Shown here: piece after piece, positions 16,929-18,592 of the stretch
Numbering within the stretch: the stretch's first letter is position 1
Layout of the letters: every line of letters starts with the position of its first letter
Notes under the pieces: generated by a model
The model's database searches: none
Told to the model about the DNA's origin: nothing
Seen by the model: only the letters and a program-made list of their open reading frames with translations
Translations under genes and position numbers: made by a program
NCBI GenBank assembly: GCA_902533445.1
Contig: CACALX010000006.1
Location: 1-64,000 of the forward strand
Length of the DNA stretch: 64,000 nt
Reading direction: 5' to 3'
DNA from: an uncultured Pelagibacteraceae bacterium
GTDB lineage: Bacteria > Pseudomonadota > Alphaproteobacteria > Pelagibacterales > Pelagibacteraceae

Positions 16929-17786
16929 ATGAAAAATATTGGTTTTATTGGTGTTGGCTATATGGGTTATGGGATTGCTAAAAACATCATTAAGCACAAA
17001 AATAATCTTTTTGTAATAGCTAACAAAAATCGTAAACCTATCGAAAAGATAGTAAGTGAAGGAGCTGAAGAAGTTAAATCTTTTGAGGATTTTGCATCTA
17101 AAAATTTAGATGCTTTATTTATGTGTGTTACCAACACACCTATTGCAAAATCTATTTCAGAAAAATTATCAAATATTTTAAGTGATAAAACAATTGTCAT
17201 TGATATTACTACTCATAATAAAACTGGCTCTATTGAAACTGAGGCAATTTTTAAATCAAATAATATTAACTACGTTGAATGTCCTGTAATGGGAGGACCT
17301 GTTCAAGCAGAAGAAGGTGTCTTAGGCGGTATCGTTGGAGCATCAGATGATAATTTTAAAATAGCAGAGCCTTATTTTAATATATTCTGTAAAGATTATT
17401 TTCATTTCGGAACTGTTGGCATGGGTGCAAAATCAAAACTTTTAAACAATTTTTTAACTTTAGGAAATGCTGCATTGATAAACCATATGGCTAAAAGTGC
17501 TAAAGAGATGAGTTTAGATTTAAAAAAAGTATTTGATGTTGCAAAACTTGGTTCAGGAAATTCTGCAGCATTAATTAGAATTTTTGATAATTTGCTAAAG
17601 GGTGATTACACAGGATTTAAATTTACTGCAAACAACTCTGTTAAAGATTTAACTTATATTCAAGATCTTTTAAAAGATTTTCCTGAAGCTGAAAAAGTTG
17701 CTGAACTAAATAAAAATTATTTTCAAAAAGCTGTTGATGATGGTTACGGAGAAAATTTTATTAGTGAATTAATTAATAAAAAATAA
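16929..17786 (+). CDS. NAD-dependent beta-hydroxyacid dehydrogenase (second copy)
   Basis: A 285-residue member of the 3-hydroxyisobutyrate dehydrogenase family with the Rossmann motif GFIGVGYMGYGIAKN, the CPVMGGPVQAEEG substrate loop at about residue 118, and the lysine in AKSKLLNNFLTLGNA at about 174. A strong Shine-Dalgarno sequence (AGGAGG) precedes the ATG by a few bases. It ends the uxaA operon. In this context it may reduce a semialdehyde produced from the sugar acid. Divergence from the 7762-8631 homologue argues against simple duplication. Confidence 0.83.
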   Translation: MKNIGFIGVGYMGYGIAKNIIKHKNNLFVIANKNRKPIEKIVSEGAEEVKSFEDFASKNLDALFMCVTNTPIAKSISEKLSNILSDKTIVIDITTHNKTGSIETEAIFKSNNINYVECPVMGGPVQAEEGVLGGIVGASDDNFKIAEPYFNIFCKDYFHFGTVGMGAKSKLLNNFLTLGNAALINHMAKSAKEMSLDLKKVFDVAKLGSGNSAALIRIFDNLLKGDYTGFKFTANNSVKDLTYIQDLLKDFPEAEKVAELNKNYFQKAVDDGYGENFISELINKK

Positions 17787-17845
17787 TTGAGGGAAGTTAA
17801 ATAAGATATCGGGAATCTACTAAAGCAGTAGGTTGTATTCAACTT

Positions 17846-17872
17846 ATTTATTTGCATTAAATGCAAATAAAT
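17846..17872. repeat. Perfect 13-bp inverted repeat with a one-base centre
   Basis: ATTTATTTGCATT (17846-17858) is followed by A and then its exact reverse complement (17860-17872). It lies 60 bases after the second hydroxyacid dehydrogenase gene. The left arm overlaps CTTATTTA at 17843-17850, which could instead pair with TAAATAAG at 17798-17805, so the two structures exclude each other. It could be a protein-binding palindrome, the 3' end signal of the uxaA operon, or part of a switching RNA. Confidence 0.75.
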
Positions 17873-17888
17873 TTATTGAAAATAATTT

Positions 17889-17951
17889 TGATATAATTAC
17901 CTTTTTAGATGAAGGAGGTTTATGTTAAAATTACTACCACCTGATACTTAG
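17889..17951 (+). other. Mini-ORF (nine codons) with extended -10 promoter and strong Shine-Dalgarno
   Basis: TGaTATAAT at 17889-17897 resembles an extended -10 promoter. GAAGGAGG at 17911-17918 is well spaced from an ATG at 17922 that opens a nine-codon frame, MLKLLPPDT, with TAG at 17949-17951. AGGAGGT (17913-17919) can pair with ACCACCT (17936-17942), six of seven positions, so the ribosome site could be masked by its own coding sequence. I know of no family for this peptide. It may be a leader peptide, or a feature of a small RNA running on to the hairpin at 18025-18063. Confidence 0.35.
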
Positions 17952-18024
17952 CTGAAGTTCTTTCGATATCAAAAAACTTAAAGTAATAAAATCCGTTTGG
18001 ATTTAATGCCAAAGAGGCGATAAA

Positions 18025-18063
18025 AAGGGAGCTCTTTAGGTATCAACTAAAGAGCGAACCCTT
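18025..18063 (-). terminator. Rho-independent terminator of the 18071-19082 genes
   Basis: GCTCTTTAG (18031-18039) pairs with CTAAAGAGC (18047-18055), and AAGGG (18025-18029) with CCCTT (18059-18063) around a small internal loop. Read on the minus strand the stem follows the 18071 stop codon and is directly followed by a run of T (TTTTTA), a classic intrinsic terminator. Read on the plus strand it is followed by A-rich sequence, so it would terminate less well. Confidence 0.8.
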
Positions 18064-18070
18064 AAAAAAA

Positions 18071-18592
18071 TTAATTTTTAGAATTTAATATTTCTAGTGG
18101 AAGTGGTGCTTCAGGATATTTTTTTTCACACAACTTTTCATAAATTTCACAAAATTTAAAAATTTTTTTTACAACTTCGTTTTCATCTTTTGAGTTTAAT
18201 TTTGAAATTAGTTTATCTCGATCTTTTTCTAACTCTTTAATTTGTTCGCCTGAAAAAAATTCTCCAGTTTCTATTTCCCAGTAAGTATCCTCTAATTCTA
18301 CATCACTTAATTCATTTAATTTTTTTTGTAACATTATAATTGTTTCATCATCAGTTTCTGTGTTTCTCATAGGAGAATTTTTTAATTTACCCAAACATTT
18401 GTCTCTTAAACCATCAATAAAATGATCGTAAGGTTTTCCTAAACTTAATTCTCTAAAATGATTACTAACAAAATATTTTTTGATTGCTAAATCTGTAGAA
18501 ATTTTTTCTTTACCCTTAATTATTGCTACTTGAACATATATCTCTTGGGAAACATATTCCTCAATATGTTCAATTACAGATTTTGGGATCAT
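18071..18592 (-). CDS. Conserved hypothetical protein, 173 aa
   Basis: I do not recognise the family. The protein is acidic and highly charged, with no signal peptide or membrane segment. It is predicted mostly helical, with a heptad-like stretch around residues 84-140 (IIMLQKKLNELSDVELED and EQIKELEKDRDKLISKL). A C-terminal cysteine pair lies in KFCEIYEKLCEKKYPE. It follows the cytochrome c' gene by 22 bases and ends in the terminator at 18025-18063, so the two are probably co-transcribed. Confidence 0.6.
   Translation of the reverse strand: MIPKSVIEHIEEYVSQEIYVQVAIIKGKEKISTDLAIKKYFVSNHFRELSLGKPYDHFIDGLRDKCLGKLKNSPMRNTETDDETIIMLQKKLNELSDVELEDTYWEIETGEFFSGEQIKELEKDRDKLISKLNSKDENEVVKKIFKFCEIYEKLCEKKYPEAPLPLEILNSKN

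Follow-up and report, generated by a model that had tools for sequence, protein, structure and literature searches.

A conserved SAR11 RNA combining three hairpins with a very short reading frame

The RNA rnTrpL reportedly arises by attenuation ahead of a biosynthetic operon. In Sinorhizobium meliloti it is a leader-type RNA of an alphaproteobacterium with a very short ORF, as is the RNA described here, and its leader peptide peTrpL is reported to act in trans (PMC7298713, excerpt). The SAR11 RNA differs from it in having neither a downstream gene nor a run of codons for one amino acid. In the short frame of the MgtL leader of mgtA, too, proline and acidic residues occur near the start, and pausing or drop-off of the ribosome changes the fate of the RNA (PMC11282234, excerpt). 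However, MgtL is cis-acting before mgtA and shows no sequence relationship to the SAR11 RNA, which has nothing to control in cis and a single acidic residue only. Small RNAs which stand alone and carry an ORF are represented by the dual-function RNA SgrS. A second example is VcdRP (PMC8672173, excerpt), and, as far as this excerpt goes, RNAs of this type have longer ORFs (29 amino acids in VcdRP) and known base-pairing targets, whereas the SAR11 mini-ORF comprises 6-11 codons.

One of the loci analyzed here (L032) lies near a gene for a protein which is presumably a member of the SOUL-like family, and for this reason the SAR11_0636 element was considered. This element, likewise an RNA candidate from SAR11 and thought to be separately transcribed, is located at 622388-622552 in P. 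ubique and forms a three-stem junction (PMC2704228, excerpt), whereas the RNA described here consists of three serial hairpins and an ORF and is found at 762691-762859 in a genome matching P. ubique. Identity of the two was therefore rejected. The same source lists the P. ubique region 762678-763012 with 335 nt, 27.76% GC and 76 BLAST hits, and its excerpt assigns no RNA to it (Meyer 2009; PMC2704228). In the matching genome, a 335-nt gap with 27.8% GC lies between ORFs ending at 762677 and 763013.

The genome which we take to be that of HIMB5 carries the RNA at 794991-795147. An RNA search in HIMB5, thus likewise in a SAR11 genome, yielded sORFs, a single sRNA and, with no function given, the two high-ranking candidates HRC-1 and HRC-2 (Stav 2019; PMC6429828, excerpt), and the part of its main text at hand contains no such motif or mechanism. 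Since the genome carries the RNA, the latter may be one of these candidates and perhaps has already been catalogued in the supplements. No description of this RNA was found in the published literature as judged by titles and abstract openings, nor in the excerpts of PMC5069720, PMC2864753, and PMC11109978.

Locus and distribution

The window, i.e., the whole stretch of 64,000 nucleotides that was analyzed, contains a gap of 284 bases in which a lone plus-strand unit is flanked by a gene with 3-hydroxyisobutyrate-dehydrogenase domains on the plus strand (16929-17786) and by a gene without a Pfam family on the minus strand (18071-18592), the latter being the nearest gene downstream of the RNA. 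The following features were assigned:

17814-17842, minus strand: divergent promoter-like element, TTGAAT (17842-17837), 17 nt, TAGATT (17819-17814), with a conserved core
17876-17903, plus strand: likely promoter, TTGAAA (17876-17881), 16 nt, TACCTT (17898-17903), from sequence and relatives
17889-17897, plus strand: TGATATAAT, the extended -10 box of the earlier note, from sequence
17912-18063, plus strand: conserved RNA from the Shine-Dalgarno (SD) to the end of hairpin P3, from covariance-model matches, absent from Rfam
17912-17919, plus strand: SD AAGGAGGT, from sequence, GGAGG in 83/83 distinct model hits
17922-17951, plus strand: mini-ORF MLKLLPPDT-stop, from sequence, PP[D/E][T/I]-stop in 83/83 distinct model hits
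17937-17951, plus strand: PPDT-stop, the end of the mini-ORF
17989-18004, plus strand: hairpin P1, two-sided changes in 6/6 pairs (model-fitted alignment)
18008-18018, plus strand: hairpin P2, two-sided changes in 2/3 pairs (model-fitted alignment)
18025-18063, plus strand: hairpin P3 with an A / GAA internal loop, two-sided changes in 9/12 pairs (model-fitted) and 4/12 pairs (unfitted)

The box, the GGAGG site, the frame MLKLLPPDT, and the closing hairpin at 18025-18063 had been named in an earlier note on this DNA and are present where it placed them; P1 and P2 are two hairpins missing from its list. The window RNA (17909-18066) folds with -40.9 kcal/mol and a z-score of -4.4, and its three-hairpin part (17980-18066) reaches a z-score of -4.6, with none of 200 shuffles as good in either case. 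The linker between the mini-ORF and P1 is A/U-rich in the window. A search of the window against Rfam 15 gave no match above a gathering cut-off, the top sub-threshold matches being eukaryotic families far under it, and ARAGORN identified no tRNA or tmRNA in the window.

Using blastn with 17889-18070 as query, 70 of 201 genomes of the genus matched at E up to 3.3e-6, while at E up to 1 all 201 matched, mostly by chance. Seventy loci were fetched from genomes of the genus, some matching genomes not being among them; 66 of these loci match an iterated profile, the other four being chance hits. A covariance model (R1) was then widened twice (R2, R3). In the order-level sample, the RNA was identified in 27 of 38 genomes of the genus at E at or below 1.7e-23; the remaining 11 gave no match or E-values of 0.0044 to 0.079, which is due either to real loss or to divergence beyond the model. 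The genomes of the genus without a convincing copy include G529, G537, and G118, and several of the 11 are nearly complete. Furthermore, the model found the RNA in all six genomes of genus g233 and in four genomes of genus g2.

Outside the family, R1 matched none of 286 genomes and R3 one of 237 (E 0.0096, in coding DNA), which is not convincing, and the best E-value in the sister family of the order was 0.0104 in the order-level sample. Searches spanning more than 40 genomes apply stricter filters, by which weak matches are lost. A scan of genome records with a motif pattern gave at least 119 matches, and 119/119 of those listed belong to Pelagibacteraceae/Pelagibacterales; viral contigs gave no match to this pattern. 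Six weak hits (L213, L244, L245, L251, L253, and L254; E 0.001-0.01) lack the mini-ORF, resemble coding DNA and were rejected, and the weak rows L214-L221 and L226-L227 as well as those of the order-level sample were left out. Two weak hits in genus g227 (L250 and L252; E 1.7e-4 and 0.0012) show an SD-led mini-ORF reading MFMPIPDT and a different 3′ part, and are possible distant relatives with another 3′ domain. This part could adopt an H-type pseudoknot fold (AAGAGC, GGACCT, GCTCTT, AGGTCC) with a terminator-like, G-rich hairpin, and in L252 a plus-strand ORF is located close downstream.

Taken as a whole, the element is almost certainly a real, conserved RNA, which looks old. The preferred explanation, a free-standing structured small RNA gene of about 155-165 nt which doubles as a minimal mRNA, is about as likely as not.

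Hairpins and mini-ORF

Model-fitted alignments contain two-sided changes in 17 of the 21 hairpin pairs, a count which leans towards structure, to which the rows had been fitted. Two alignments were available, A1 with 42 of 63 distinct full-length sequences and A2 with 35. In A2, which was produced with MAFFT and not fitted to structure, 98.6% of the cells are paired; six pairs change on both sides, a number as high in 4/500 shuffles, and the covariation score was reached by 0/500. As far as alignments of relatives can tell, this shows that the three hairpins are maintained by compensatory change, and the covariation shows that the structure of the RNA matters.

P1 is nearly invariant in two sister genera, reading GAATTCATTTTTCTAAATGAATTC with an extra T at one locus (L211, L212, L222-L225, L242, L243, L248, and L249), whereas in the genus of the window it varies with compensation. 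Pairing of the P3 loop (AGGUAUCA) with the DT-stop codons (UGAUACUUAG) into a pseudoknot, for which ten pairs are possible in the window, was rejected, as the loop fails to follow the GAT/GAC codon across relatives (two alignments, judged by eye with no formal count).

The window mini-ORF consists of the codons ATG TTA AAA TTA CTA CCA CCT GAT ACT TAG. For the coding count, the first ATG after GGAGG was read in all 83 distinct covariance-model hits, a procedure that involves no codon-aware pattern; 157 distinct regions were excluded as coding proof because they had been picked with such a pattern. In every one of the 83 hits PP[D/E][T/I]-stop closes a frame of 6-11 codons. The two prolines are encoded by CCA (78) or CCG (5) and by CCT (80) or CCA (3), the acidic residue by GAC (40), GAT (35) or GAA (8), and the last residue by ACT (73), ACA (8) or ATT (2), followed by TAG (68), TAA (10) or TGA (5). 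Thus all four conserved sense codons vary at the third position, first- or second-position changes being confined to the two ATT cases, stop codons change only into stop codons, and the last five codons show silent or conservative changes only. The N-terminal residues differ between lineages in sequence and length, the sister-genera peptide being MSPPET or MSPPEI, and the distance between SD and ATG ranges from 0 to 11 nt with the frame intact throughout. Within these 83 hits, the codon changes show amino-acid-level conservation of the last four residues and of the stop, and the mini-ORF is very probably translated. Conservation was the check which the earlier note had named for ORF and hairpins, and both pass it, the frame end being kept in 83/83 and the hairpins covarying; of its nine codons, the last four and the stop are conserved, while the others vary.

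These data can also be read as a very small gene, in which the product would be a peptide M-x(1-7)-PP[D/E][T/I], with hairpins that serve solely to protect the mRNA. The conserved C-terminus, the strong SD, and the lack of a downstream gene would fit such a gene, but just four residues are conserved, the N-terminus shifting in sequence and length, and three covarying hairpins with conserved stem sequence exceed what the end of an mRNA needs, so that this explanation is considered unlikely, if worth keeping in mind.

Alternatively, a non-coding regulatory RNA could bind 30S subunits via its SD, the frame being a by-product of a CC-rich, SD-like sequence. The SD is indeed very strong, CCNCC is able to pair with GGAGG, and across the genus the surroundings of the stop (CTTAGCTG) are more conserved than coding would require. 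However, third-position changes in all four codons, exchanges of stop for stop, and a frame that survives variable spacing and peptide length in 83/83 hits are hard to reconcile with a by-product, which makes a purely non-coding RNA decidedly improbable.

The pairing between the SD and ACCACCT pointed out in the earlier note is possible, but in the window an A.A mismatch interrupts it centrally, and the piece with SD and ORF by itself has an ordinary stability (z 0.23, 104/200 shuffles as good). The SD is mostly paired in the folds of 79/79 distinct SD-to-stop fragments (mean 0.75), which is due to the presence of GG and CC, as the mean is still 0.73 when the sequence separating SD and PP is shuffled. 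A conserved switch in which the Pro-Pro codons mask the SD was therefore rejected, and a translation-dependent switch is not supported by SD masking that does no better than its shuffled control. The helix between SD and PP is almost invariant and hence uninformative either way. When the whole RNA is folded, the SD finds pairing partners in several different regions. Some of these folds, although not in every lineage, contain a hairpin in which the PPDT-stop codons pair with a CTGG located after the stop.

Genomic context and upstream elements

The nearest downstream gene is located on the opposite strand at 65/65 loci, the 66th ending at a contig end, and at 32/33 further loci, the two sets having a few genomes in common. 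The exception (L224) is a 68-codon ORF 240 bases on. With opposite-strand neighbors at nearly all loci, the RNA is no leader, and the regulated same-strand gene downstream that characterizes a cis-acting leader-peptide attenuator is absent. The convergent genes belong to several families across lineages, and the upstream gene changes in family and strand. At five of eight sister-genera loci as well as at L248 and L249, the convergent neighbor presumably is folD-like. Promoter-like upstream sequence stays with the RNA beside these different genes. The earlier note was therefore right in seeing an independent unit with no gene behind it on the same strand.

The RNA might instead serve the convergent gene, either through P3 as a bidirectional terminator or as an antisense regulator of the neighbor. 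Read on the minus strand of the window, P3 is a terminator-like site for gene 18071-18592, and at many loci the neighbor ends within a few bases of P3. Nevertheless, the family of the neighbor differs between lineages, T-rich tails follow P3 about equally often on the minus strand (17/83) and the plus strand (18/83) in a rough test, and the mini-ORF would be left unexplained; a service to the convergent gene is thus very unlikely. With a tail in only 18/83, P3 is no conserved plus-strand terminator either.

The extended -10 box of the earlier note exists in the window, but its TG form is confined to the window and its nearest relative, and the TATAAT core recurs in the lineage group of the window and not in other lineages. 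More widely kept is a TTGAAW -35 box with a weak TAnnTT hexamer 16-17 nt on: TTGA lies 15-18 nt from a TAnnTT-like hexamer, in 118/145 distinct upstream regions at 16 or 17 nt. This arrangement stands before the SD and thus probably places the 5′ end a few bases at most from AAGGAGG. From these upstream regions we infer that the RNA is transcribed from the TTGAAW-N16/17-TAnnTT promoter with its 5′ end just before the SD, and its genomic context would fit a stand-alone transcript.

In addition, a divergent block is located about 80 bases before the SD and reads TTGAAT(ACAACC)-17-TAnnnT on the minus strand. Its 10-base core occurs in 145/149 distinct upstream regions, whatever the upstream gene, and the hexamer 17 nt beyond it is nearly always TAnnnT. 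By this measure the divergent promoter-like element is part of the conserved locus.

Several side observations concern this region. In about half of the lineages, TTGAATACAACC of the divergent element has a forward copy at the -35 box of the RNA itself, and where both core copies are present, they lie 43 bases apart. In the window, a transcript from the divergent element would run antisense into gene 16929-17786. An inverted repeat of AT-rich sequence around TTTGCATTAAATGCAAA (17848-17875), situated between both promoter-like elements, matches itself on the other strand and is not common to most relatives. Of the 17 occurrences of the upstream 12-mer GGTTGTATTCAA in 12 genomes, 14 are at the RNA locus, and no regulon was found for it, the three remaining sites sharing no context.

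Finally, AT-rich DNA is rich in promoter-like sites (2 found vs. 2.3 in shuffles), but an untranscribed gap with a fortuitous SD, short frame, and hairpins is contradicted by cross-genus conservation, synonymous changes, and covariation, and is negligible as an explanation.

Possible mode of action and biological meaning

PPD or PPE is present in 83/83 distinct model hits and EF-P is encoded in 10/10 genomes checked, which are the marks of an EF-P-sensitive pausing ORF, i.e., a diprolyl motif followed by D/E in a genome with EF-P. Both triplets are among the EF-P-dependent pause sites of E. coli, and the same source describes PPX pausing as strongly context-dependent, which counts against pausing here (PMC4140641, excerpt). 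In MgtL, proline and acidic residues early in the frame lead to ribosome drop-off (PMC11282234, excerpt). Given these pause sites, the drop-off at MgtL, and the presence of EF-P, a translated small RNA with a pausing or releasing mini-ORF is favored. Furthermore, the kept parts are the residues nearest the peptidyl-transferase center together with the stop, while the N-terminus is free, which suggests the ribosome as the reader of the motif. The PIPDT of the possible g227 relatives is no diprolyl motif and would speak against a strict diprolyl rule.

In the proposed mechanism, a 5′ end just before the SD would allow a ribosome to load at once and to slow down at PP-[D/E]-[T/I]-stop. This motif is diprolyl and of the kind sensitive to EF-P, and the nascent chain carrying it would be too short for the length of the exit tunnel. 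The ribosome parked at the motif, or dropping off, would set the 5′ folding and the lifetime of the RNA, and the part with P1-P3 would be the output and act in trans, be it as an RNA or as a binding module. The RNA would work as an attenuator leader cut loose from its operon. As regards the parts of this reading, pausing may well be the point of the mini-ORF, with the balance tipping somewhat to the other side, and a trans-acting 3′ domain is given even odds. The complete scheme, a translation sensor and its output in one RNA, where the holding of a ribosome at PP[D/E][T/I]-stop decides on the activity of the three hairpins and not of a downstream gene, is put forward as a tentative and rather unlikely model.

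If the complete scheme were true, the RNA would be an attenuator without an operon, reporting the elongation state of the cell (EF-P, prolyl-tRNA or ion status) in trans; if pausing is true, leader-like sensing is possible without the gene of a leader. The mini-ORF offers a sharp test case, as conservation confined to the last four residues and the stop suggests a role of the ribosome and not of a peptide product, and the copy in the genome matching P. ubique HTCC1062 provides a defined target in a cultured strain. SAR11 bacteria are among the most abundant in the ocean. Their genomes are streamlined and have few regulators (PMC13198564, excerpt), so that a free-standing RNA which is kept in several genera likely matters to them.
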